From Flavobacteriales bacterium (lineage in GTDB: Bacteria; Bacteroidota; Bacteroidia; NS11-12g; UBA955): 64,000 nt of DNA. Positions 1,984 through 64,000 of the stretch are shown here, one piece after another; positions within the stretch are counted from its first letter, which is position 1; every line of letters begins with the position of its first letter. The stretch lies in assembly GCA_947447955.1 (NCBI GenBank), contig CANFLS010000001.1, positions 124,001-188,000 on the forward strand. The letters are read 5' to 3'. The notes below the pieces were generated by a model. The model was not told the origin of the DNA. It worked only from the letters and a program-made list of their open reading frames with translations, and did no database searches. A program made the translations under genes and the position numbers.

Positions 1984-2149
1984 ATTTTCTTTGTAAATTT
2001 ATTTTTTGTAAATTTTAAATTTCACAATGAATATTAAAATTTTGACAAAAGTATTACATTGTTATTGAATAATTTGTAGTATTATTTCGAAGTAGGAATA
2101 AATGGATTAATTTCTTAGTAAATGATATATTTTTCTTTGTAAACGGATT

Positions 2150-2468
2150 ATTGCTTCGCGAGCACTTCGTGCGATCGCTTCGCGAGTTGACATCCCTACG
2201 GGAGTTGACGCTGCTTCGCAGGTTGACGCTTCGCTGTTGACAGCACTACGTGCGTTTACGGCTTTGCCAGTTTACGCTTCGCTGTTTAATTTAGTTTAGA
2301 GGTTTAGATGGCTACGCCGTTTAGAAGCATTGCCATGCGTTTAGACCGCTGCGCGGTTAAGTTGGTAATTTGAATAAGAAACCTAAAATAACCCTTTCAA
2401 CCCAATAATCCCAATCTGTCTAATCTTTCTAACCCTCCCGAAAGCTTTCGGGATAATCTGTCTAATCT
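2150..2468 (+). repeat. Composite repeat A: mini-hairpin array, core, palindrome, 9-mers
   Basis: About 12 small palindromes occur at 2152-2358, such as GCACTTCGTGC, CCCTACGGG and CCGCTGCGCGG, spaced by GTTGAC, then GTTTAC, then GTTTAG. The core (ACCTAAAATAACCCTTTCAAC) is at 2381-2401. The 18-bp palindrome TCCCGAAAGCTTTCGGGA is at 2436-2453, inside GTCTAATC-type 9-mers. Positions 2283-2403 recur almost unchanged at 2836-2956. No protein is supported in this stretch. Confidence 0.9.
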
Positions 2469-2491
2469 GAATTCTTGCAAAGCAAGAATTC
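2469..2491. other. Perfect 10-bp hairpin before a small gene
   Basis: GAATTCTTGC and GCAAGAATTC flank an AAA loop, a perfect 10-bp stem. It abuts the last 9-mer of repeat A and lies 40 nt before the ATG at 2531. It lacks a T tract, so it is not an obvious terminator; it may be another unit of the repeat or a 5' regulatory hairpin. Confidence 0.5.
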
Positions 2492-2530
2492 CAATTGTAT
2501 TTTAACCAAGAATTAATTAAATTTGAATGT

Positions 2531-2767
2531 ATGAAAAAGGTTGATGATAATTTGAAGGAAAAAGAAGAAGATCCATTCATCACAATTCTTAAATCTTATA
2601 CGTTGGAATTAACTAAAAGTAAAGCTGCTTCAAAAAAATTCTTGGTTGACATTGGTGTAATGACTAAAAAAGGAAACCTAAAAAAGAATTATAGAGCATT
2701 AGCTAATATCCCTTCGGGAGTTGACATCCCTTCGGGAGTTGACTCTGCTTCGCAGGTTGACGCCTAA
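2531..2767 (+). CDS. Small hypothetical protein with repeat-encoded C-terminus
   Basis: A 78-residue protein starting MKKVDDNLKEKEEDP. A TTG 36 nt upstream would add 12 residues, but the ATG is preferred. The central part (about residues 20-57; ELTKSKAASKKFLVDIGVMTKKGNLKKNYR) resembles short, widespread Bacteroidota proteins of unknown function. From residue 60 the frame enters repeat B: the last 19 residues read IPSGVD, IPSGVD, SASQVD, A, each hexapeptide being one 18-nt repeat unit. The native C-terminus was probably near the ALANI segment and the stop is now provided by the array. Repeats A and B flank the gene in direct orientation. Function unknown. Confidence 0.6.
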   Translation: MKKVDDNLKEKEEDPFITILKSYTLELTKSKAASKKFLVDIGVMTKKGNLKKNYRALANIPSGVDIPSGVDSASQVDA

Positions 2768-3012
2768 CGGCTGTTGACATCGCTGCGCGAGTTTAAGGCT
2801 TCACCAGTTTACGCTACGCTGTTTACGCCTTCGGCTGTTTAATTTGGTTTAGAGGTTTAGATGGCTACGCCGTTTAGAAGCATTGCCATGCGTTTAGACC
2901 GCTGCGCGGTTAAGTTGGATATTTGAATAAGAAACCTAAAATAACCCTTTCAACCCATCTAAACCAATCCGTCTAATCCGTCTAATCTGTCTAACCCGTC
3001 TAATCCCTTTTT
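2707..3012 (+). repeat. Composite repeat B
   Basis: The array at 2707-2920 has about 11 palindromic units, beginning with two CCCTTCGGG units and ending with GCATTGCCATGC and CCGCTGCGCGG. The core is at 2934-2954, followed by 9-mers GTCTAATCC, GTCTAATCT and GTCTAACCC up to about 3006. There is no 18-bp palindrome in this copy. Positions 2836-2956 match 2283-2403 of repeat A at 118 of 121 positions by eye. Confidence 0.9.
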
Positions 3013-3081: not shown

Positions 3082-4029
3082 ATGAAAATTCTCGTTACAG
3101 GTGGGGCTGGTTTTATTGGGTCGAACCTTGTTAAAGCTTTGTTAGATAGAGATGATATTCATCTGGTTAGGGTGCTCGATAACTTTGCAACGGGGCATTT
3201 GAGTAACATCGAAGAATTTTTGGATAATCCGCGTTTTGAGTTGGTGGAAGGCGATATTCGCAATCCTGAAGATTGCCTGAAAGCCTGCAACGGCATCGAT
3301 GCGGTGAGTCACCAAGCTGCATTGGGATCGGTTCCGCGGAGCATTGCCGATCCAATTACATCGCACAATGTAAATGTAAATGGCTTTTTGAATATGCTTG
3401 AGGCGGTGCGTGAAAAAGGCATCCAACGCTTTGTATATGCCTCTAGTTCATCCGTTTATGGCGACTTGAATGAGTCCCCCAAAATAGAAAAGAGGGTGGG
3501 AAAAGTACTGAGTCCTTATGCTGCTACCAAAATGACGAATGAATTGTATGCCGAGGCGTATGCCAAAAACTACAATTTGAGCATTGCGGGGTTCAGATAT
3601 TTCAATGTTTTTGGTCCCAAGCAAGATCCGAACGGCCCGTACGCGGCTGTTATTCCGTTGTTTGTGAAGAGTGCGTTGAACAATGTCCCTCCAACCATTA
3701 ACGGCGATGGAAGCATTACCCGCGATTTCACTCCAGTTGCCAATGTTGTGAATATTAATATTTTGGCACTTTTGGGTTATCTTGAGGGAAGCAAACACTA
3801 CGTATTTAATGTGGCGTGTGGAAACACCACCGATTTGTTGAGCATTTGGAAAATGGTGAAGGAAATTGCGAAGAGCAATGTGAATGCGGTTCACGGCCCT
3901 GTTCGAAAAGGAGATATTTTATTTAGTTTGGCGGATGTGTCTTTTGCCAAAGAAATTTTGGGTTATAAGCCTGAAAGTGATTTGAAACGTGCCTTGACAG
4001 AGGCGGTTGAATACTACAAAGGGCTGTAA
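3082..4029 (+). CDS. wbpP: UDP-N-acetylhexosamine 4-epimerase, WbpP-like
   Basis: An extended short-chain dehydrogenase of 315 residues, predicted to interconvert UDP-GlcNAc(A) and UDP-GalNAc(A) in the cytoplasm for O-antigen or capsule synthesis. The Rossmann motif GGAGFIG is at 7-13. The SSSSVYGD stretch and the catalytic Y146xxxK150 (SPYAATK) are present, and segments such as HQAALGSVPRSI and RYFNVFGPKQDPNGPYAAVIP are characteristic of WbpP/TviC-type epimerases. It is slightly shorter than the usual 330-345 residues. The start is fixed by a TATATTTG box 4 nt upstream. It is followed by the dehydratase gene at 4217, so the pair may be one sugar-nucleotide unit. Substrate is inferred, not shown. 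Confidence 0.85.
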   Translation: MKILVTGGAGFIGSNLVKALLDRDDIHLVRVLDNFATGHLSNIEEFLDNPRFELVEGDIRNPEDCLKACNGIDAVSHQAALGSVPRSIADPITSHNVNVNGFLNMLEAVREKGIQRFVYASSSSVYGDLNESPKIEKRVGKVLSPYAATKMTNELYAEAYAKNYNLSIAGFRYFNVFGPKQDPNGPYAAVIPLFVKSALNNVPPTINGDGSITRDFTPVANVVNINILALLGYLEGSKHYVFNVACGNTTDLLSIWKMVKEIAKSNVNAVHGPVRKGDILFSLADVSFAKEILGYKPESDLKRALTEAVEYYKGL

Positions 4030-4187
4030 AAAGAGATTTGTGTGTTGATGGCGATGGTTTTTTGTCTGTTTAAATTGTCATTTTTTAGTGAACCACCCAT
4101 TTTTTTAGTGGATGATGGTGTATTTTGACAAGTTTGGCTCGAAATTTGCCAATTGTAGAAGAAATTCTATCATAAAATATAACAAAA

Positions 4188-4195
4188 TATTTTTG
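4188..4195 (+). promoter_or_regulatory. Candidate -7 box TATTTTTG of the dehydratase gene
   Basis: TATTTTTG fits TAnnTTTG and lies 21 nt before the ATG at 4217. It overlaps a TTGAGGGA octamer (4193-4200). The 187-nt gap after the epimerase gene holds no gene. Confidence 0.5.
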
Positions 4196-4216
4196 AGGGA
4201 TTAAATTTAGTAATTA

Positions 4217-6133
4217 ATGAATACATTGTTAGAAAATTGGGTGTTAAAACTGCTTGGTAAAAGGTATTTGCCAACGTGGTTGATTCTCATTTTAGATCTG
4301 GCAATTGTTGGTGCATCGTTTGTTTTTGCACTGTTGTTACTTACTGATTTTTCATTTTATAAAATTTATTCGAATTCTCGTTTGCAGGTTTGGGGTCTTT
4401 TGGAATTGACCTATGGTGTATCGTTTGTATTGTTTAAGTCGTACGAAGGTGCTTTCAGACATACAGGAGTTCGAGATTTGATGCGTCTGTTTTTGGCAAC
4501 GCTACTTGCATTGTTTCTTTCTTTTGCTGTTACCAGATTGGCTGGTGCTTCGGGCTATTTTGAAGTAAAGAACATTACATTGTCGTTTTTGATTTTGCAG
4601 GGATTTTCTTTCACTTTGGGTGTGTTGGGAATTCGATTGTTTGTGAAATTGATGTATAGCCGTTATGTATTGAATACCAACAACAAGAATGAAGTGGGTA
4701 TTTTGATTTATGGGGCTGGAACAACAGGTGTTACTGTGAGAAACGCGGTGAAGCAAGACCGTAATTCGGGATTGGTTGTGGTTGGTTTCATTGACGATAA
4801 CGATAAGTTCGTAGGAAAGCGCATTGACGGGGTGAAAGTTTATTCGTTTGATGAAGTTTTTAACCGCGAGTTTATATTAAAGAATAAAGTACGAGAGGTA
4901 ATTTGGTCGATACAATCTGAGGCGGGAACTTCCTTTCACAAGGTGGGAGATTCGTGTTTGGCAAATAATTTGTCCTTCCACAAGGTACCAAATATCAAAG
5001 ATTGGATAGGAGGCTCGTTGAGTCGCAAGCAATTGCGCAGGGTAAAGATCGAAGATTTGTTGAACCGCACATCTATATCGTTAGAAAATAAATTGTTGAA
5101 TGAGTTTATTTCGAATAAGTGTGTTTTGGTAACTGGTGCAGCGGGAAGCATAGGCAGTGAATTGTGTAGGCAGATTTTGTATTACAAACCGAAGCAGTTG
5201 GTTATTTTCGACAATGGTGAAACGGCTTTGAATGATTTTATATTGGAATTAAACAAGCATTCGAAATTCGCCAACAATGTTACTTGTATCATTGGTGATG
5301 TAACCCGTGAGAATAGGGTTTCTGAAATATTTGAAACTTACAAACCTGAATTGGTGTTTCATGCTGCTGCTTATAAGCATGTGCCGATGATGGAAGTGAA
5401 TGCCAAAGAGGCTGTTCGTGTGAATGTTGAGGGAACGAGAATCGTTGCCGAGGCTAGCGTGAAATATGGCACTAAGAAGTTTGTGATGATTTCAACAGAC
5501 AAGGCTGTGAATCCTACGAATGTGATGGGAGCTTCGAAGCGTGCTGCTGAGATTTTGGTTCAAAACATGAGTGGGAAATCTGAAACGGAGTTCATTACCA
5601 CGCGATTTGGAAATGTGTTGGGATCGAACGGATCGGTTATTCCATTGTTCCGCCGTCAGATTGAGAACCGCGAAAATGTGACTGTAACGCACAAAGACAT
5701 TACACGTTATTTCATGACGATTCCTGAGGCTTGTCAGTTGGTATTCCAGGCGGCAACCATGGGGAATGGTGGGGAGATTTTCGTGTTCGACATGGGAGAA
5801 CCCGTTAAGATTTATGACTTGGCAGTAAAGATGATCAAGCTGAGTGGATTGACACTTGATACTGATATTAAGATTGTTGAAACCGGATTGAGATCTGGTG
5901 AGAAGTTATATGAGGAATTGTTGAGCAATGCTGAAAACACGTTGCCAACGCATCACCCGAAGATATTGATTGCCAAGGTGCGCCAATACGAAGATGATCA
6001 GATTCTACCTATTTACAGCAATTTGAATTACGCTGCCTTTAATGGCGCCACTGACTGGGAAATCGTAAAATTGCTAAAGGATTTAATTCCCGAGTACAAG
6101 AGTCAGAATTCTATTTACGAGGGATTGGACTGA
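4217..6133 (+). CDS. Membrane-bound nucleotide-sugar 4,6-dehydratase, WbpM/CapD family
   Basis: A 638-residue polysaccharide-biosynthesis protein. About four hydrophobic helices occupy residues 15-145, followed by a CoA-binding-like Rossmann region (IYGAGTTG near 163-172) and the dehydratase domain. The second nucleotide-binding motif GAAGSIGSE is at 307-315. The STDKAV motif begins at 426, and M437 and K441 in MGASK give the Ser/Met/Lys arrangement of WbpM-type enzymes in which Met replaces the usual Tyr. The family makes UDP-4-keto-6-deoxy-GlcNAc, the first step to QuiNAc, FucNAc or bacillosamine. The stop codon abuts repeat C directly. Family certain; exact product inferred. Confidence 0.9.
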   Translation: MNTLLENWVLKLLGKRYLPTWLILILDLAIVGASFVFALLLLTDFSFYKIYSNSRLQVWGLLELTYGVSFVLFKSYEGAFRHTGVRDLMRLFLATLLALFLSFAVTRLAGASGYFEVKNITLSFLILQGFSFTLGVLGIRLFVKLMYSRYVLNTNNKNEVGILIYGAGTTGVTVRNAVKQDRNSGLVVVGFIDDNDKFVGKRIDGVKVYSFDEVFNREFILKNKVREVIWSIQSEAGTSFHKVGDSCLANNLSFHKVPNIKDWIGGSLSRKQLRRVKIEDLLNRTSISLENKLLNEFISNKCVLVTGAAGSIGSELCRQILYYKPKQLVIFDNGETALNDFILELNKHSKFANNVTCIIGDVTRENRVSEIFETYKPELVFHAAAYKHVPMMEVNAKEAVRVNVEGTRIVAEASVKYGTKKFVMISTDKAVNPTNVMGASKRAAEILVQNMSGKSETEFITTRFGNVLGSNGSVIPLFRRQIENRENVTVTHKDITRYFMTIPEACQLVFQAATMGNGGEIFVFDMGEPVKIYDLAVKMIKLSGLTLDTDIKIVETGLRSGEKLYEELLSNAENTLPTHHPKILIAKVRQYEDDQILPIYSNLNYAAFNGATDWEIVKLLKDLIPEYKSQNSIYEGLD

Positions 6134-6462
6134 CCGCTTCGCGGTGTTGACGGCCTAAAGGCCTGTTGACGCTACGCTGTTGACGGCTGCGCCTATTTAA
6201 TTTAGCAACCACCTAAAATAAACCATTTCAACTCCCGAAAGCTTTCGGGATAAACCCTTCTAAACCTTTTCCGTTTAGAAGCACTTCGTGCGTTTAGGGT
6301 TTAGAAGCATTGCCATGCGTTTAGACCGCTGCGCGGTTATGTTGGAAATCTGATTTAAAAGATTTGCTCAACGACCGGTAGGTTTTCTAAACGGCGAAGC
6401 CATCTAAACGCCGTAGGCTTCTAAACGAGCGAAGCTCTTCTAAACGCACGCAGTGCATCTAA
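6134..6462 (+). repeat. Composite repeat C (long form with hexamer inversion)
   Basis: Order of parts: palindromic units CCGCTTCGCGG, GGCCTAAAGGCC, GCTACGC and GGCTGCGCC with GTTGAC spacers; core 6211-6232; 18-bp palindrome 6233-6250; GTTTAG-spaced units; a linker with AACGACCGG; then CTAAAC-spaced units GGCGAAGCC, GCCGTAGGC, GAGCGAAGCTC and GCACGCAGTGC. The right half is therefore inverted relative to the left half. The copy at 13155-13590 has the same order on the other strand. No gene is supported here. Confidence 0.9.
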
Positions 6463-7091
6463 GATTGTTCATTTTTAAGTTGTTTTAAAACGGGAATCAT
6501 GATTTCTCTAATCCAAGCTGGAGCGAGTCTTATATCGTGTTCAAGCCGGGTATGTTTTTCTTTTTTTAATAGATTTTGAATATGTTGAATTTCGTTAAAT
6601 TTTACATTGTCTTTTCCAATAGTTTTTAGCGCTTGAATTACCAAGCCACTAATTTCACCAACTGCTGATACATTTTTGGGGGATGTTTTTTTAAAAGTGA
6701 TACGGCTATTTCCAATAATTAATTTGCGGGCTGACCCATCGGTAAGATATATAAAATTAGTGGGCACTTGTGTTGAAAGGCCTAATTGGTTTAGCGCATA
6801 CGAGCCAGTTGGTACAATTCTAGCTTTATCTCTTTTTGCAATTGCGAGTACAACCGTTTCGATATTAGGAGTTAATTCTCCAATGAGTTTGCTATTAGCG
6901 GGTCTATAATAAATACCTTTAGAAAGCCTTTGCAATTCACCGGTTTTTACCATTCGCTCTAATGCTTTATTTACTGTTTTGGCATTTGCAATTTTCACGA
7001 AATTTTCCACAAAAAATAGCGTGCCTCTCTTGGCTTTTTTTATTTTTATAAGGGTTTTATATTCAGTACTTAAGTACATATATTTGTTCAT
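6459..7091 (-). CDS. AbiEi-like antitoxin-family protein (DUF6088), orphan
   Basis: A 210-residue protein starting MNKYMYLSTEY. The N-terminal winged-helix part (about 15-65, ending LQRLSKGIYYRP) and the following PTGSYALNQLGLSTQVPTN segment are typical of DUF6088 proteins, which resemble the antitoxin of type IV AbiE systems. AbiEi antitoxins act as repressors paired with an AbiEii nucleotidyltransferase toxin normally encoded just downstream. Here the downstream side is repeat C and no nucleotidyltransferase is present, so it is an orphan. The TAG stop lies in the last CTAA of repeat C. A TATATTTG box sits 9 nt before the ATG. Function as an antitoxin is inferred. Confidence 0.75.
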   Translation of the reverse strand: MNKYMYLSTEYKTLIKIKKAKRGTLFFVENFVKIANAKTVNKALERMVKTGELQRLSKGIYYRPANSKLIGELTPNIETVVLAIAKRDKARIVPTGSYALNQLGLSTQVPTNFIYLTDGSARKLIIGNSRITFKKTSPKNVSAVGEISGLVIQALKTIGKDNVKFNEIQHIQNLLKKEKHTRLEHDIRLAPAWIREIMIPVLKQLKNEQS

Positions 7092-7100
7092 ATTATGTCG

Positions 7101-7108
7101 CAAATATA
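7101..7108 (-). promoter_or_regulatory. -7 box TATATTTG of the DUF6088 gene
   Basis: The consensus TAnnTTTG on the minus strand lies 9 nt before the ATG at 7091 and supports that start over the in-frame TTG at 7103. Confidence 0.65.
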
Positions 7109-7135
7109 ATAAAAAAATGCGACAATTTTTGGCTA

Positions 7136-7313
7136 TTCGCTTCGCGTTGCTCAGCGAGTTTACGCCTGTCGGCGGTTTACGGCTTCGCCTGTTTAAATTT
7201 GCAACTACTTAAAATAAGCCATTTCAACTCATCTAAACCCAATCCGTCTAATCCGTCTAACCCGTCTAATCAGTCTAATCTAAATAAAACCTGTCTAACC
7301 CGTCTAATCCAGA
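7136..7313 (+). repeat. Composite repeat D (short form)
   Basis: Three palindromic units (a CGCTTCGCG unit joined to a second TTGCTCAGCG arm, GCCTGTCGGC, GGCTTCGCC) spaced by GTTTAC are followed by the core at 7207-7228 and seven or so 9-mers GTCTAATCC, GTCTAACCC or GTCTAATCA up to 7309. No 18-bp palindrome. The last 9-mer overlaps the 3' end of hicB. Confidence 0.88.
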
Positions 7314-7711
7314 TAAAACTCCTTGAGCCCCATTAGCTCAGCGCCAATAGTATTTAGTCCATCCATGATTTTCATTTTCTGCTTTTTGGATGGCTTTTTC
7401 TTTCCAGTTGTGTATTGCGATAATAACGACGGATTCATGCCTATCCTGTTTGCAACATATCTGCTATTGATTACTTTGTAATACTCAAAAAATTGTTGCA
7501 AATCTATTGACAAGCATAAATTATCTGTTTCTATAAACTTGTCTTTATCTTCGAGTAGCAAATTAAAAGCTTCAACCAAATTACAGTTCAATTCTGAAAT
7601 ATTGCTTCCCGTTGAATAGAGAGACTCAGCTGGTTTATATTCCAGATAAGCGGAGTAACCGGTGTCGGTAATTTCAACATTTACATCGAATTTGCTTTTT
7701 AGTTTTTTCAT
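7304..7711 (-). CDS. hicB: HicB-type antitoxin with HTH domain
   Basis: A 135-residue protein. The N-terminal half (VNVEITDTGYSAYLEY, SNISELNCNLVEAFNLLLED) fits the HicB partial RNase-H fold. The C-terminal half has an XRE-type helix-turn-helix (RYVANRIGMNPSLLSQYTTGKKKPS, about 85-110), as in chromosomal HicB antitoxins that also repress their operon. Three nucleotides upstream lies the end of a broken hicA (7715-7809), so the antitoxin persists without an intact toxin. The final codons (FYLD and TAG) run into the first 9-mer of repeat D, so the extreme C-terminus may be altered by the repeat. Confidence 0.8.
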   Translation of the reverse strand: MKKLKSKFDVNVEITDTGYSAYLEYKPAESLYSTGSNISELNCNLVEAFNLLLEDKDKFIETDNLCLSIDLQQFFEYYKVINSRYVANRIGMNPSLLSQYTTGKKKPSKKQKMKIMDGLNTIGAELMGLKEFYLD

Positions 7712-7714
7712 AAG

Positions 7715-7809
7715 TTACCTTTTAATTTGGGCTTGCTTGAATAATGACTTTTCAGTTCCTTTTGCTAATTCCTTAGATCCGTGATCTTTTTAGCTTCCGA
7801 ATATTTCAT
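7715..7809 (-). pseudogene. hicA: hicA toxin remnant with internal deletion
   Basis: ATG at 7809 opens MKYSEAKKI, a typical HicA N-terminus. Another frame then reads HGSKELAKGTEKSLFKQAQ and IKR before TAA at 7715-7717, a typical HicA C-terminus. The two parts overlap at the junction, are out of frame, and lack the central region of roughly 30-35 codons including the double-stranded-RNA-binding core. Read from the ATG, translation stops after 14 codons. The 3-nt spacing to hicB is normal for a hicAB operon. A CAAAAGTA (TACTTTTG on minus) at 7811-7818 may be the -7 box but lies only 1 nt from the ATG. Confidence 0.75.
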
Positions 7810-7901
7810 ACAAAAGTAAATTATAATTAACTTTTTTCCAAAGAATAATTACAAAGTTCTGTAATAATTTTAAGTGATTCGTTTGATAAACGTTTATATA
7901 T

Positions 7902-8102
7902 GTTTAGAATGCTTCGCGTTGCTCAGCGGGTTTACGCCTTCGGCAGTTTACGCTATGCTGTTTACGGCTTCGCCTGTTTAATTTTATGTAGTTACCTGAA
8001 ATAAACCTTTTCAACTCCCGAAAGCTTTCGGGATAAACGCCCTAAACGCTTATAAACCTTTTAAATGCCGAAGGCTTTTAAACGAGCGAAGCTCTTCTAA
8101 AC
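7902..8102 (+). repeat. Composite repeat E
   Basis: An array of ATGCTTCGCG with a second arm, GCCTTCGGC, GCTATGC and GGCTTCGCC spaced by GTTTAC, then core 7994-8015, the 18-bp palindrome 8016-8033, then TAAAC-spaced units GCCGAAGGC and GAGCGAAGCTC. The gap between hicA and higB (7810-8235) is otherwise AT-rich and holds only the higB operator and promoter. Confidence 0.88.
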
Positions 8103-8190
8103 CTTTTATTCCTTTTTACCCATTTATAAACGTTTAAACAACGGATAAGCAAATAGTTATGAATTAATTTTGTGAAATAATGAAAATAAT

Positions 8191-8223
8191 AGTTCACTTT
8201 TTGCGAACTTTTATTTATATTTG
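8191..8223 (+). promoter_or_regulatory. higBA promoter with overlapping operator-like inverted repeat
   Basis: The -7 box TATATTTG is at 8216-8223, 12 nt before the higB ATG. AGTTCAC (8191-8197) and GCGAACT (8203-8209) form an inverted repeat with one mismatch and a 5-nt spacer, over the expected -33 region. This placement fits autorepression by the HigA antitoxin, which is usual for HigBA modules. Confidence 0.55.
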
Positions 8224-8235
8224 AATTGTGAAGAG

Positions 8236-8565
8236 ATGAAAGTGCATTTGATAAAGAAGAAAACCGTTTCTGATTTTGTAGAAAGTCATTCAAATGGGAA
8301 AAGTGATTTTGATAAGTGGTTGAAATTGGTTTTGATTGCTGATTTAAATGAACCTAGTGATATCCCCAAATTATTCGCTGGTGCGGATTTATTGGGTAAT
8401 GGTTTCAACAGGGTCATTTTTAATATTGGAGGGAATAAATTTAGATTAATCGCTTCTTATTATTTTGGCAGTAAGAATGTGCGATTTTATATCAAGTGGA
8501 TTGGAACACACAGTGAATACGATGAACTCTGCAAACAGAGTAAACAGTATTTTATAAGTATTTAA
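8236..8565 (+). CDS. higB: HigB-family mRNA interferase toxin
   Basis: A 109-residue protein starting MKVHLIKKKTVSDFV; the TTG at 8221 is rejected because it lies in the promoter box. The sequence matches the HigB_toxin family of RelE-like ribosome-dependent nucleases: WLKLVLIADLNEPSDIPK followed by GNGFNRVIFNIGGNKFRLIA, then VRFYIKWIGTHSEYDEL. The family cleaves translated mRNA and is neutralised by the HTH antitoxin encoded 27 nt downstream. The toxin-first gene order is typical of higBA. It appears intact. It lies between repeats E and F. Confidence 0.88.
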   Translation: MKVHLIKKKTVSDFVESHSNGKSDFDKWLKLVLIADLNEPSDIPKLFAGADLLGNGFNRVIFNIGGNKFRLIASYYFGSKNVRFYIKWIGTHSEYDELCKQSKQYFISI

Positions 8566-8592
8566 AAACATGGAATAATTAATAACTGAGAA

Positions 8593-8967
8593 ATGGAAAC
8601 AACATTAATATACAAAAGGATCAAAACTGAAGTTCAATACAACGATTATGTGAATCGAATGGAAGAATTGGATGGATTGCTATTAGAAAATCATACCACG
8701 GAATTGGAAGAGGAGATTGATTTGTTGCAACTCTTAGTAGAAGATTACGAAGAGAAATATATTACAACGAAAGGATCGAGTCCCTCAGAATTGTTAAAAC
8801 TTTTATTGAAAGAACATAAACTGACTGCCAATGATTTGGCAAAAGAATTTGAAATTAGCAAAAGCGTTATAAGTGAAGTTTTATCGAACAAAAGGGCAAT
8901 TAGTAAATCTTTCGCAGTAAAAATAGCGGGTAAATTTAAGGTTCGTTTAGAGCACTTCGTGCGTTGA
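8593..8967 (+). CDS. higA: HigA-type antitoxin with XRE HTH domain
   Basis: A 124-residue protein with an acidic N-terminal helical part (about 20-60, ELEEEIDLLQLLVEDYEEKY) that would cover the toxin. A C-terminal XRE helix-turn-helix follows at about 68-118 (LTANDLAKEFEISKSVISEVLSNKRAIS). It should bind HigB and repress the operon through the inverted repeat at 8191-8209. The last codons, coding for LEHFVR, and the TGA stop lie inside repeat F (unit GCACTTCGTGC and hexamer GTTGAC), where relatives usually end KFKV or similar plus a short tail. The coding region is otherwise intact. Confidence 0.87.
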   Translation: METTLIYKRIKTEVQYNDYVNRMEELDGLLLENHTTELEEEIDLLQLLVEDYEEKYITTKGSSPSELLKLLLKEHKLTANDLAKEFEISKSVISEVLSNKRAISKSFAVKIAGKFKVRLEHFVR

Positions 8968-9285
8968 CATCGCTTCGCGTTGCTCAGCGCGTTTACTGCT
9001 TCGCAGGTTGACATCGCTATCGCGAGTTGACGGCCTAAAGGCCTGTTGACATCGCTTCGCATTGCTCAGCGAGTTGACGCTCATTCTGAGCTGTTGACGG
9101 CAGCGCCTGTTTAATTATATGTAGTTACCTGAAATAAACCTTTTCAACTCCCGAAAGCTTTCGGGATAAACCCTATCTGTCTAATCAGTCTAACCTGTCT
9201 AACCCGTCTAATCCAGATAAAATCTGTCTAATCAGTCTAACCTTCCCGAAAGCTTTCGGGATAACCCGTCTAACCCCAAAATAAT
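8945..9285 (+). repeat. Composite repeat F
   Basis: A clean array at 8945-9110: palindromes GCACTTCGTGC, CGCTTCGCG with a second arm, TGCTTCGCA, TCGCTATCGCGA, GGCCTAAAGGCC, GCTCATTCTGAGC and GGCAGCGCC with GTTGAC or GTTTAC between them. The core follows at 9127-9148. Two 18-bp palindromes are at 9149-9166 and 9244-9261, with 9-mers between and after them. Both flanking genes converge on it: higA ends at its left edge and wecB ends inside its right part. Confidence 0.92.
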
Positions 9286-10344
9286 CCTCCCCGCGGTTTT
9301 ACCATCCCACATAGGTGGAATGGCGCCAGTTTTCCAATTGCCAGATTGAAGTTTATCTAGGGCTTTGGCCAAGTCTTCAGGTTTTGTACCTACCAATTCG
9401 TTGGTGCCAATGTCGCAGGTTTCTGGACGTTCGGTGCTGGTTCTCATGGTGATGCAAGGCACTCCCATGACAGTGGTTTCTTCCGTTATTCCCCCAGAAT
9501 CGGTTACCACACCTTTGGCATGTTTCACCAAATAATTGAATTCGAAGTACGACATCGGATCGGCCATGATTACATTGTTTGGTTTGATTCCAAACAGTTC
9601 CATGTTTTTGCGGGTTCGGGGATGAACCGGGAAAATGACTTTGCTTCCCGACAATGATTTTTCAATCACCTCAAAAATGCTGCGCATTTGTTCGGCGTGA
9701 TCTACATTTGAGGGACGGTGAAGCGTCATCACATAATATTGTTTTTCGCTCAAATTTTCGGTTTGCCAAAGTGAGGGCGCAACCAAATCTTTGTCGTGAT
9801 ACAATAAGGTATCAATCATGGTATTTCCTACGAATTTGATTTTATCGTCGGAAACGCCTGCATTTCTTAAATTGGTATTTGCAGTTTCAGAGGTTGTAAA
9901 AAAGATATCGGTGATACTGTCTGTAACCAAGCGATTGATTTCCTCGGGCATTTCAATGTCCCAACTTCTAATTCCTCCCTCAACATGGGCAACTTTGGTA
10001 TGTAGTTTTTTTGCAACGATGGCGCAGGCCATGGTGCTGGTAACATCGCCAACCACCAAAACATAATCGCAAGGATTTGCTATTAATTCCTTTTCAAAGG
10101 CAACCATAATGGCTGCGGTTTGTTCGGCTTGAGAACCACCACCACATTCGAGGTTCACGTGGGGTTCAGGAATATTTAATTGCTCAAAAAAATTACCCGA
10201 CATGGCTTTGTCGTAATGCTGACCGGTGTGCACCAAGCGAAAATCGATGTTTTTGCCAGAGTTTTTGGCATTTTCAATTTCCCTAATGATAGGGGCTATT
10301 TTCATAAAATTCGGCCTAGCACCTGCAATCAACGTAATTTTCAT
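9232..10344 (-). CDS. wecB: UDP-N-acetylglucosamine 2-epimerase (non-hydrolysing)
   Basis: Interconverts UDP-GlcNAc and UDP-ManNAc in the cytoplasm for surface polysaccharides or secondary cell-wall glycans. The 370-residue protein has the family N-terminus (GARPNFMKIAPI at 8-19), the GGIRSWDIEMPEEINR segment (about 123-138), HRPSN and HPRTRKNM, and DSGGITEE (about 281-288), which contacts the nucleotide. The 3' end lies inside repeat F: the last residues, GLDGLSRKLSGRLD, are the minus-strand reading of the 9-mers and the 18-bp palindrome. The native end was probably near AGRIIL. The promoter box is TATCTTTG 5 nt before the ATG. Confidence 0.92.
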   Translation of the reverse strand: MKITLIAGARPNFMKIAPIIREIENAKNSGKNIDFRLVHTGQHYDKAMSGNFFEQLNIPEPHVNLECGGGSQAEQTAAIMVAFEKELIANPCDYVLVVGDVTSTMACAIVAKKLHTKVAHVEGGIRSWDIEMPEEINRLVTDSITDIFFTTSETANTNLRNAGVSDDKIKFVGNTMIDTLLYHDKDLVAPSLWQTENLSEKQYYVMTLHRPSNVDHAEQMRSIFEVIEKSLSGSKVIFPVHPRTRKNMELFGIKPNNVIMADPMSYFEFNYLVKHAKGVVTDSGGITEETTVMGVPCITMRTSTERPETCDIGTNELVGTKPEDLAKALDKLQSGNWKTGAIPPMWDGKTAGRIILGLDGLSRKLSGRLD

Positions 10345-15937: not shown

Positions 15938-16647
15938 TGATTGTGATGGGTTCTGTAATTACCTTCGATATTGGGAATACCAGAACCAAGTTTGCGGTTT
16001 TTAGTGCCGATGGGTCTTTGATAGATTTTGGTGCTGATTGCGAAATTGCTAATGTTTTGAATCAACATGATGGGGCTAAGGTAATTTACTCTACAGTGCT
16101 GAAAGAAGTGAATGATCATTTAACAGACAAAACGGCTTTTTCTGTTTCTCTTTGTAGGGACATTCAGATTTTGGTAAAAAATACAGAAACTTTAGGAAAA
16201 GATAGGTTGGCGGCGGTGATGGGTGCAAAGTTTCTTTTTGGAGATAAAAACTGCCTTGTTATTGATGCAGGAACTTGCATTACTTACGACTATCTTTTGG
16301 GGAATGGCGATTATTTGGGGGGTGCAATTTCAATGGGTATTGGCATGAGATACAGGGCGTTGAATGAGTTCACCAGCAAACTACCGTCCCTCAATAAAGA
16401 AGAAGGGGAAGGCGAAATTGACGATATTGGTGGGCATACTGCAGAGGCAATTCACAGTGGGGTTTGCATAGGATTTTTCGATGAAGTGAATGCCCGAATA
16501 GACAGATTCAAGGCAAAATATGATAATTCTATCGTTATTTTCACGGGTGGAGATGCCAACTTCTTGGCGAAACACATTAAATACGAGATATTTGTAGAAC
16601 CATTATTGGTACATTACGGTTTATATCATGCAATTCAAACAGCTTAA
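15937..16647 (+). CDS. coaX: Type III pantothenate kinase
   Basis: First step of coenzyme A synthesis: phosphorylation of pantothenate. The protein of 236 residues belongs to the ASKHA fold. FDIGNTRTKF (9-18) is the phosphate-binding motif, DAGTCITYDY is the second signature near 109, and FTGGDA near 201 is the adenosine motif. The start overlaps the pheT stop by 1 nt and the 3' end overlaps the following outer-membrane protein gene by 20 nt, so the genes are translationally coupled. An alternative start at the fourth codon (MGSV) is possible. Confidence 0.95.
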   Translation: MIVMGSVITFDIGNTRTKFAVFSADGSLIDFGADCEIANVLNQHDGAKVIYSTVLKEVNDHLTDKTAFSVSLCRDIQILVKNTETLGKDRLAAVMGAKFLFGDKNCLVIDAGTCITYDYLLGNGDYLGGAISMGIGMRYRALNEFTSKLPSLNKEEGEGEIDDIGGHTAEAIHSGVCIGFFDEVNARIDRFKAKYDNSIVIFTGGDANFLAKHIKYEIFVEPLLVHYGLYHAIQTA

Positions 16648-18007
16648 GGCTTTATTCAGTATCATATTTCTTGGAATATTAGGTGTTCAATTGAATGCCC
16701 AAGGCACAAGTGGTCAGAACTTTACGGGTTCTCCATTTAGTAGTTATGGGTTGGGAGAATGGACTGGTTCTAACTTTTTACAGGCCAATACTTCAATGAA
16801 TACCCACTCTGGGTATTATTCTTACAGTTTATGTAATCCTGCAACTTTGGGAAGCGTTCGTTTCACTACTTTGGATTTATCGGGGGGATATAAAGAGGGA
16901 TTGGTAACTTCTGGCAGCCAGCAACAGTCATTTACGGGTGGTGGTTTGAATTATGTGAGTTTGGCATTTCCTGTTTGGAAATATTTGAAGAAGAATGTGA
17001 TTGGGTATGACAGTGCCAAGAAAATGAAGAAGTTCAAATACGTTCCTTATGGTGCGGCATCTTCTTTGGTTTTGAAGCCTTTGACTACTGTGGGATACTC
17101 TTATTTTTTAGACAATGATAAAGGCGCTTTGCCAACGAGAACTTCTTACAGGGGAACTGGTGGTATTGATGTTTTCCAATGGAATTTGGGATTCAGATTG
17201 GCTAATAAGCTAAATATTGGATATGGTTTGGGCTATGTTTTTGGTTCGTTGAAAGAGAATTCTTTGTTTTCGATACCGGATAGTTTGTCTTTGGGAGTTG
17301 TTGAAGATGCCAAGGTAAATGTAATTCGGGGCGTGCAACAACAATTTGGTTTGTTGGCGAATTTCAAATTAGATAGTACTTACCATAAAATTGGTTTGTC
17401 GTACGAAATGTATACCGGTTTGAGTGGAACCCAAAGTCGTTTGATTAGAAATCTAGAGGTTTCTGGAGGATATACTTCGATCATGGATACCATTTATTCG
17501 AATGATGGTGTAAAGCAAGATTTCACAATGCCTACGGCGATTGGGGTTGGTTATAGTTTTCAATTTAGGAGGGCATTTTCTTTGAATTTCGACTTGAGAA
17601 AACAGGTTTGGGGAAATGTGAATACCTTCTTCGACAAAACAAAGCACAAAGACAGAATGGATTATGGCGTGTCGTTGGTGTTGAATCCGGTTGATGAAAA
17701 ATCGCCGAATGAGCGCAAAATGAAGATGCCAATTCGTTTGGGTTACGTTTATTCTACAACACAGAACATTTACAATTATTCGGGTGCTGAGCATCAGGTG
17801 ATTGAGCAACGAATGTCGGTAGGATTTGGCTTGCCGTTTGTGCAGCGTTACTACGATAATTCTGTAATTACCAATATGGTGAATGTAAACATTCAATATT
17901 TAACCCGTGGATTTAAGGCTTCGGGCATGCCAAGTGAGCAATATTTGGTGTTGGGATTGGGATTACAGCTTGGCGACATTTGGTTTGCGAAGCGTAAATA
18001 CGATTAA
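16628..18007 (+). CDS. Outer-membrane beta-barrel protein, unknown role
   Basis: A 459-residue protein with a signal peptide (MQFKQLKALFSIIFLGILG, cleavage after LNAQ). It has many alternating amphipathic strands, N-terminal GSPFSSYGLGEW and SLCNPATLGS motifs, and a C-terminal strand GLGLQLGDIWFAKRKYD. This resembles Bacteroidota outer-membrane proteins of the FadL/PorV-like size class, encoded between coaX and lptC. The position next to lptC suggests a link with envelope biogenesis. No function can be assigned from sequence. It overlaps coaX by 20 nt. Confidence 0.75.
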   Translation: MQFKQLKALFSIIFLGILGVQLNAQGTSGQNFTGSPFSSYGLGEWTGSNFLQANTSMNTHSGYYSYSLCNPATLGSVRFTTLDLSGGYKEGLVTSGSQQQSFTGGGLNYVSLAFPVWKYLKKNVIGYDSAKKMKKFKYVPYGAASSLVLKPLTTVGYSYFLDNDKGALPTRTSYRGTGGIDVFQWNLGFRLANKLNIGYGLGYVFGSLKENSLFSIPDSLSLGVVEDAKVNVIRGVQQQFGLLANFKLDSTYHKIGLSYEMYTGLSGTQSRLIRNLEVSGGYTSIMDTIYSNDGVKQDFTMPTAIGVGYSFQFRRAFSLNFDLRKQVWGNVNTFFDKTKHKDRMDYGVSLVLNPVDEKSPNERKMKMPIRLGYVYSTTQNIYNYSGAEHQVIEQRMSVGFGLPFVQRYYDNSVITNMVNVNIQYLTRGFKASGMPSEQYLVLGLGLQLGDIWFAKRKYD

Positions 18008-63306: not shown

Positions 63307-63605
63307 GTTGACGCTACGCTGTTGACGCTACGCTGTTTATGGCTATCGCTTGTTTAGAATTGTAAAACCAACTTTTATAAACTTTTATAAACCCCAGACA
63401 ATCTGTCTAATCTGTCTAACCGGTCTAATCCGTCTAACCTTTTTTTGTTGACGCTACGCTGTTTATGGCTATCGCCTGTTTAGAGTTGTAAAACCAACTT
63501 TTATAAACGCTCATAAACCGTTAAAAACCTTAGAATTCCAACAATCCCAATCTGTCTAATCCTCCCGAAAGCTTTCGGGATAACCGGTCTAATCCGTCTA
63601 ACCCT
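63307..63605 (+). repeat. Composite repeat I, internally duplicated
   Basis: Two successive copies of the block TTTTTTTGTTGAC, GCTACGC unit(s), GTTTATGGCTATCGC, TTGTAAAACCAACTTTTATAAAC start near 63300 and 63433. Each is followed by 9-mers GTCTAATCT, GTCTAACCG or GTCTAATCC. The 18-bp palindrome is at 63563-63580. The usual core is replaced by the TTGTAAAACCAACTTTTATAAAC-type sequence. It fills the gap between the susD terminator and asnS; the nearest other copy is 50 kb away. Confidence 0.85.
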
Positions 63606-63609
63606 ATAA

Positions 63610-64000
63610 TTATGGTTTAAGACGTCCGTACATTCTTGGGAAAGGAATGCTTTCTCTTACGTGTTTCAATTTACACACCCAAGTAACCATTCTTTCTAAT
63701 CCCAATCCAAAACCTGAATGAGGTACTGATCCAAATCTACGCAAATCTAAATACCATTCGAATTCAGACATTGGCAAATCGTGTTCTTTGATTTTTTCGA
63801 TAAGACTTTCTACGTTTGTTTCACGTTCTCCACCACCAACAATTTCACCATATCCCTCAGGAGCCAAAACATCTACACCACGGGCAAAACGAGAATCGTT
63901 AGGGTTGCGTTTTAAATAGAAGGCTTTCACTTCATGAGGCCAATCGTAAACCATTACAGGACGGTCAAACAAACGGGTTAACACTGTTTCATCGCTGCCA
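63610..64000 (-). CDS. asnS: Asparaginyl-tRNA synthetase, C-terminal part (partial)
   Basis: The gene runs off the right edge; 130 residues are visible. The frame reads GSDETVLTRLFDRPVMVYDWPHEVKAFYLKRN, then DVLAPEGYGEIVGGGERE (class II motif 2 region) and the motif 3 stretch GFGLGLERMVTWVCKLKHVRESIPFPRMYGRLKP at the C-terminus, typical of AsnRS. The enzyme charges tRNA-Asn. The TAA stop is 5 nt from the last 9-mer of repeat I, which does not enter the coding region. Confidence 0.95.
   Translation of the reverse strand, partial: GSDETVLTRLFDRPVMVYDWPHEVKAFYLKRNPNDSRFARGVDVLAPEGYGEIVGGGERETNVESLIEKIKEHDLPMSEFEWYLDLRRFGSVPHSGFGLGLERMVTWVCKLKHVRESIPFPRMYGRLKP

Follow-up and report, generated by a model that had tools for sequence, protein, structure and literature searches.

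The two long direct repeats in the 64,000-nucleotide stretch of Flavobacteriales DNA analyzed here (the window) are best interpreted as two copies of a 3'-end array that is largely restricted to a single genus, with the remnant of a recently transferred toxin-antitoxin-like operon lying between them; we assign this reading a probability of roughly 0.7. Judging by sequence comparisons, the 78-residue ORF between the repeats is not an intact stand-alone gene, and codons 1 to 57 represent the antitoxin-like half of a widespread two-gene operon.

The identity of 118 out of 121 positions originally noted for the repeats at 2283-2403 and 2836-2956, both read on the forward strand, proved exact, with the mismatches located at 2293, 2366 and 2367. 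The ungapped match reaches 141 of 152 positions (2281-2432 versus 2834-2985; 11 differences), with a repeat-to-repeat spacing of 553 bp and a longest identical run of 72 bp, whereas the longest exact direct repeats within 1 kb in ten 64-kb windows randomized by single-base shuffling were only 12-16 bp. Weaker homology of the two copies is found 5' of the 121-bp match (2174-2229 with 2708-2763, and 2233-2288 with 2770-2825), and both copies constitute the later portions of longer intergenic arrays. A search of the source genome (G000; 2.81 Mb in 70 contigs, 94% complete) with the 152-bp segment listed 33 matches, with 40 of 71 candidates scored; among the matches listed, the full query is covered by 2281-2432 and 2834-2985 only, the next best spanning 55-59 bp, and the long identity is hence local and lies atop a dispersed family.

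The left array (2139..2432, +) contains GTTGAC, GTTTAC and GTTTAGA spacers with short palindromes, followed by ACCTAAAATAACCCTTTCAACCC, and holds the first repeat copy within its final 152 bp. It is followed by a short stretch (2433..2491, +) comprising a CCCGAAAGCTTTCGGG palindrome, a GTCTAATC unit and a GAATTCTTGCAAAGCAAGAATTC palindrome. The right array (2708..2985, +) provides the stop codon of the 78-residue ORF, holds the second copy, and is closed by 9-base tandem units of CGTCTAATC (2966..3006, +) 5' of an epimerase gene (3082-4029). Reading of the sequences points to a polar order in which GTTGAC-spaced palindromes are succeeded by GTTTAC-spaced ones, GTTTAATTT, GTTTAGA-spaced palindromes, ACCTAAAATAACCCTTTCAACCC and finally the CGTCTAATC units. 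The spacers (for example at 2204-2345) include all three stop codons, namely TGA in GTTGAC, TAG in GTTTAGA, and TAA in GTTTAAT and GTCTAAT. An array cluster is also present at the far end of the window (63307-63610), and a motif-cluster scan detected no arrays between about 13.6 kb and 63.3 kb.

The secondary structure potential of the arrays was assessed on a sample of 265,731 bases, consisting of the window and 16 array-bearing stretches of the same genome, which contains 179 segments enclosed between two spacers. A stem of at least 3 bp is present in 122 of these segments (shuffled mean 17.2, maximum 30) and one of at least 4 bp in 34 (shuffled mean 1.4, maximum 6; 200 shuffles each), these counts not being independent because the array copies are of common descent. 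The inter-spacer stems are mostly 2-5 bp long, and 124 of the 170 hairpins with a stem of at least 2 bp have a TNC loop, which reads GNA on the other strand; GNA triloops are unusually stable in DNA. Longer palindromes are present inside the arrays as well: the sample contains CCCGAAAGCTTTCGGG 13 times in exact form, and GAATTCTTGCAAAGCAAGAATTC a single time. Whole-array folding was no better than that of shuffled sequence for the one array evaluated in each mode (z of -0.42 for DNA and -0.97 for RNA), and a strong fold of the entire array as RNA or DNA is thus unsupported. Searches of the window against Rfam at the gathering score, and of the right array against plasmids and phages, returned no match.

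The ORF itself (2531..2767, +; 78 residues counted from ATG, or 90 if translation begins at an upstream TTG) is composed of the 57 antitoxin-like codons, 2 more codons, 19 array-encoded residues (IPSGVDIPSGVDSASQVDA) and the stop. It does lie between the repeats, as had been claimed, but its last 19 codons and stop (2708-2767) are inside the right array. Its short leader and first 57 codons make up a 210-bp segment (2492..2701, +) that is 99.5% identical to the sister species G004; this segment begins at the edge of a GAATTC palindrome and ends, as does the G004 homology, at the point where the start codon of a partner gene lies in G004. The adjoining epimerase gene is 80.3% identical between the two species, and the disparity suggests that the unit moved recently. 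As far as sequence identity can tell, the segment is thus either a recent transfer of the 210-bp unit or a chimeric assembly. An assembly artefact, with the 210-bp fragment and the second array belonging elsewhere, would fit the repeat-bounded state of the fragment on both sides, its near-identity to that of another metagenome bin and the high frequency of arrays, since short-read assemblers tend to make misjoins at repeats of this length. Nevertheless, we regard it as very unlikely, given that the two copies differ at 11 positions, that the left array and its left flank align with the corresponding place in G004 (locus L013, 3220-3541, at 75.5%), and that G004 independently has the same gene between arrays by the same epimerase gene. 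The right part of the 2433-2491 stretch also resembles sequence adjoining the epimerase gene in G004 (2454-2492 versus L013 4847-4885, 97%).

In G004 an intact gene pair is situated between the arrays, and the homologue of the ORF (L013 3827-4021) overlaps a 200-aa partner gene (3997-4599) by 25 nt. A scan of named genomes with the partner versions of G004 and of a further congener, G009, recovered 151 relatives, of which 80 were kept; these are found in many Bacteroidota and Lachnospiraceae, and also in Thiomargarita, Leptospiraceae and others. In 78 of the 80 loci, all of which had been found via the partner, an ORF of at least 40 aa ends near the partner start (limits of about -80 to +60 nt), the two exceptions being L098, with just 93 bases upstream, and L107. 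A hidden Markov model derived from 13 of these upstream ORFs (the odd-numbered loci among L029-L062, with L029, L045, L053 and L055 left out by hand, and a motif rule selecting one ORF at loci with more than one) recognizes 62 of the 67 loci held out, missing L055, L102, L103 and the two loci devoid of an upstream ORF. Searched against 72 sequences, the same model also matches the window ORF (E=1.6e-19). No family was named by Pfam or NCBIfam for the window ORF, or by Pfam, PADLOC, PHROGs or NCBIfam for its G004 homologue. The window thus preserves the small upstream protein with its conserved core and lacks the second gene of the operon; the latter was not found anywhere in the 94% complete assembly of the source genome, and is present in two of 97 genomes, namely G004 and G009.

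The partner shows a match to the Pfam PARP family below the cut-off (E=0.0077), weak matches to two PD-T4-9_A models of PADLOC (E=1.6e-6 and 6.8e-6), and a match to phrog_14664 in PHROGs (E=2e-25). Its AlphaFold2 model (pLDDT 92; 41 rows) is nearest to a tied group of solved folds that includes the NatT, MbcT, ParT and PARP ADP-ribosyltransferases, at modest Z values of 6.9-8.2; VIA-align rows less than 1 apart in Z were treated as ties, and hence no single nearest fold is claimed. Foldseek gave no match to the model at E<=0.001, the best being 1.1e-3. The second gene is accordingly predicted, on the basis of these profile and model comparisons, to encode an ADP-ribosyltransferase, and we infer that it may be toxic and that the pair may constitute a toxin-antitoxin system.

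Many relatives of the ORF stop directly after the shared core, implying that the window copy retains this core. This, together with the intactness of the core and the location of arrays at gene 3' ends, as described for REPs (PMC3733652), would agree with a functional stand-alone small gene that is fixed in the species, the arrays being only transcription terminators or mRNA stabilizers. Such an interpretation appears improbable in light of the conserved pairing of upstream ORF and partner in the loci found through the latter, the presence of the gene in just three of the 14 genomes of the genus, and its repeat-derived tail; the intact frame is itself weak evidence for it, as the transfer was recent.

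The comparison within the genus covered 14 genomes, including that of the window, of which several are fragmented assemblies and G004 is 74% complete. Variable presence of the unit, as originally suggested, is borne out between species: three genomes including the source genome have the gene, with G004 possessing the intact pair at the epimerase gene, G007 having neither gene, and G009 encoding the pair on another contig (L015 8923-9752) between arrays at 8730-8779 and 9807-9984. The epimerase gene was found in four genomes; in G009 it comes after a sugar transferase gene, and in G007, the closest species found (epimerase 94% identical at the protein level), the corresponding gap is occupied by about 8 kb of other genes and shows neither a spacer cluster nor a matching gene. 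The asparagine-synthase genes upstream in G000 and G004 show no DNA match to each other, so that only the downstream gene and the array flank establish the correspondence of the site. The right array of G004 is inverted and differs in content. Recombination between the repeats had been proposed to remove the gene cleanly and leave one element. A 553-bp loss including the ORF is plausible from the 72-bp exact identity, but the lone array that it would leave does not appear at this place in any of the four genomes with the epimerase gene, and removal would not be that of a clean unit, the ORF being a truncated operon with a repeat-made 3' end.

In G004 a second antitoxin-like C-terminal fragment (L014 on C334, 1-162, cut by the contig end) is located 5' of a capD homologue, so closely that no partner gene would fit in between, and is possibly another orphan. 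An array-rich region of the source genome (L109, G000:C1:58000-77999) contains a DUF433 gene, a RES/Xre pair and a nucleotidyltransferase-like gene; up to DUF433, the sizes and succession of its ORFs are similar to those on contig 55 of G009 (L015), where the ADP-ribosyltransferase-type pair comes next.

The 68 arrays of the sample comprise 9,466 bases, of which 346 overlap retained ORFs of at least 80 aa. The stop codons of 19 genes and the start codon of only one, among 217 genes, lie in an array or no more than 3 nt away from one. This 19:1 ratio (binomial p 4e-5) comes from 17 stretches picked as array-bearing and is an estimate of bias, not a genome-wide rate; ORFs were called from ATG at 80 aa or more, and those with at least 40% array sequence were dropped and are hence absent from the 346-base overlap. 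In 15 of the 19 array-ending cases, by a reading of the list, the gene runs into the CGTCTAATC side of the array. Among gaps of at least 60 nt, arrays are held by 15 of 20 convergent, 21 of 56 tandem and 11 of 31 divergent ones. The arrays can also overwrite gene ends: the wecB-like gene (9232-10344, -) terminates inside a further array (9179..9274, +), and though its product is 92% identical to the G007 counterpart, about its last 15 residues, LGLDGLSRKLSGRLD, are array sequence that replaces the different end, VEEFKGL, seen in G007. The last codons and stop of a HigA-like antitoxin gene (window 8593-8967; RLEHFVR*) are likewise read from a hairpin array. In a scan of 20 array-neighboring proteins chosen by eye from the 16 stretches, array-flanked genes were found to include those for ribosomal protein L19, the S6-S18-L9 group, SUI1, methionine sulfoxide reductase, dehydroquinase and enoyl-CoA hydratase. 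Since the arrays adjoin ribosomal and metabolic genes, we rejected the idea that they specifically delimit toxin-antitoxin units. By analogy with what has been proposed for REPs (PMC3733652), they may serve as 3'-end or terminator elements.

A 3.1-kb island in the window (6134-9237) contains a DUF6088/AbiEi-like gene, an HTH-like gene by a HicA remnant, and a HigBA pair, all interspersed with arrays. It is missing from G007, where capD and wecB adjoin (16608 to 16745). The DUF6088 gene is present in three and the HigB homologue in two of the 14 genomes of the genus, and the closest DUF6088 copy of G009 (83%) is situated between a peptidase gene and pheT. The HicA-type toxin remnant spans 23 codons (7718-7786, -) that match positions 38-58 of PF07927 below the cut-off (E=2.1e-4); it sits 5' of an intact gene for a 135-aa product (7304-7711, -) that weakly matches HTH, about 115 bp from an array at 7902-7982. 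This remnant and the kept HTH-like neighbor are possibly a second case of toxin loss.

The presence of arrays around a DUF6088 gene that occupies different sites in G000 and G009, and around the intact pair in G004 as well as in G009, the direct repeats on both sides of the ORF and the recent transfer of the 210-bp core could all be reconciled with repeats that form the ends of a discrete transposon-, REPIN- or integron-like cassette moving with the gene as a unit. We consider a mobile cassette quite unlikely: the repeat family also surrounds housekeeping genes, the G004 right array has the inverted orientation and other content noted above, no common junction emerged among the few cases compared, and a Y1 transposase of the RAYT type (PF01797) was not found in the 94% complete source genome and occurs in one of 14 genomes of the genus. 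The original prediction as a whole is partly supported, and the evidence favors two copies of a dispersed 3'-end array around an operon remnant.

To count arrays across genomes we used an exact 18-letter module, GTTKACGCTNCGCNGTTK, in place of the pattern GTTTACG N4-14 GTTTA, which was dropped because its reversed control was as frequent in the source genome (55 versus 58). The exact module occurs in 51 copies in this genome, with none of the reversed control. It is present in 7 of 70 genomes of the family, 6 of which are among the 14 of the genus (51, 30, 22, 9, 6 and 2 copies); one of the 56 family genomes outside the genus has a single match, and the reversed control gave one match, in G004. 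In a phylum-wide sample of 395 genomes the module is restricted to the source genome and a single match in one of the other 394, the reversed control having single matches in 6 of 395. The two matches outside the genus are single and at the level of the reversed control, and by this count the arrays appear to be nearly confined to part of one genus. In contig 33 of G009 a 228-bp stretch contains at least 14 module matches, with intervals of mostly 14 bases, which suggests array growth by slippage. The motif-cluster rule, which calls arrays from at least four spacers, found no cluster in the G007 loci L025 and L026; nevertheless, 17948-18113 of L025 can be aligned to one of the window arrays at 85%, indicating that this rule misses sparser arrays.

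The closest known parallels are the REP elements, which PMC3733652 describes as GTAG- and CGTC-tagged palindromes with stems of 5-13 bp and 8-9 bp, respectively (its Table 1), located mostly downstream of coding regions. As portrayed there, they resemble the arrays in being short palindromes that are intergenic, present in many copies, clustered, mostly 3' of genes and uneven between related species; the 19 stops against one start in our array-chosen sample conform to this location. The arrays differ in being long and polar and in having fixed spacers of 6-7 bases along with a 9-base tandem unit; most hairpins between their spacers have 2-5 bp stems, and CCCGAAAGCTTTCGGG and GAATTCTTGCAAAGCAAGAATTC are longer. 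By eye, their spacers are GTAAAC, GTCAAC and TCTAAAC on the other strand; CGTC occurs in CGTCAAC and in CGTCTAATC yet does not appear to mark every palindrome as a constant tag. The RAYT transposase associated with GTAG-type REPs was likewise not found in the source genome, as described above. Another comparable class is the TAACTGA heptamer, which PMC4679880 reports from Beggiatoaceae, Cyanobacteria and five Bacteroidetes as short intergenic direct repeats grouped into sets; several of the Bacteroidetes have long arrays. It has another sequence, whereas the present arrays have palindromes between units, and its sets lie, in that account, mostly just 5' of the start codon in the study's main genome as opposed to the 3' ends of genes.

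Of the toxin-antitoxin systems, CmdTAC (PD-T4-9), as presented in PMC9519451, shares with the pair an ADP-ribosyltransferase-like toxin in a small operon, in keeping with the weak PD-T4-9_A matches of the partner. Unlike it, the small gene here comes first and the partner second, the small gene matches no library family, and the window is without the toxin. ParST, MbcTA and NatRT have ADP-ribosyltransferase-fold toxins that are among the nearest solved structures; the small upstream protein without a Pfam family and the modest fold similarity set the pair apart from them. A thin search of the open-licence literature found no earlier description of the arrays or of the small-protein and ADP-ribosyltransferase pair.

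The hairpin arrays, present in many gaps of the genome, would offer homology for recombination, which could be the simplest route to gain, loss and rearrangement of array-flanked genes. At the present locus the leader and conserved core of the antitoxin-like gene would have survived, whereas everything from the start codon of the ADP-ribosyltransferase-like partner onward was lost, probably through recombination in or near the arrays, with an array now supplying the end of the ORF. The two array copies may have arisen by local duplication or conversion, and the residual gene might be deletable or might still be active as an antitoxin. A bolder proposal, which we advance tentatively and hold to be rather doubtful, is that the arrays are a genus-specific 3'-end class that overwrites gene ends and repeatedly trims toxin-antitoxin operons such that the toxin is lost and the antitoxin kept, as seen at the ADP-ribosyltransferase pair and possibly at a HicAB-like pair. 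If true, the arrays would represent a disarming mechanism by which addiction modules are turned into lasting anti-addiction genes. If the main reading is right, the locus would reveal a repeat family that scarcely occurs outside part of one freshwater genus and can replace the 3' ends of genes, together with a two-gene, toxin-antitoxin-like mobile unit caught soon after toxin loss; it would also bring to light a widespread pairing of a small protein with an ADP-ribosyltransferase that is directly testable.
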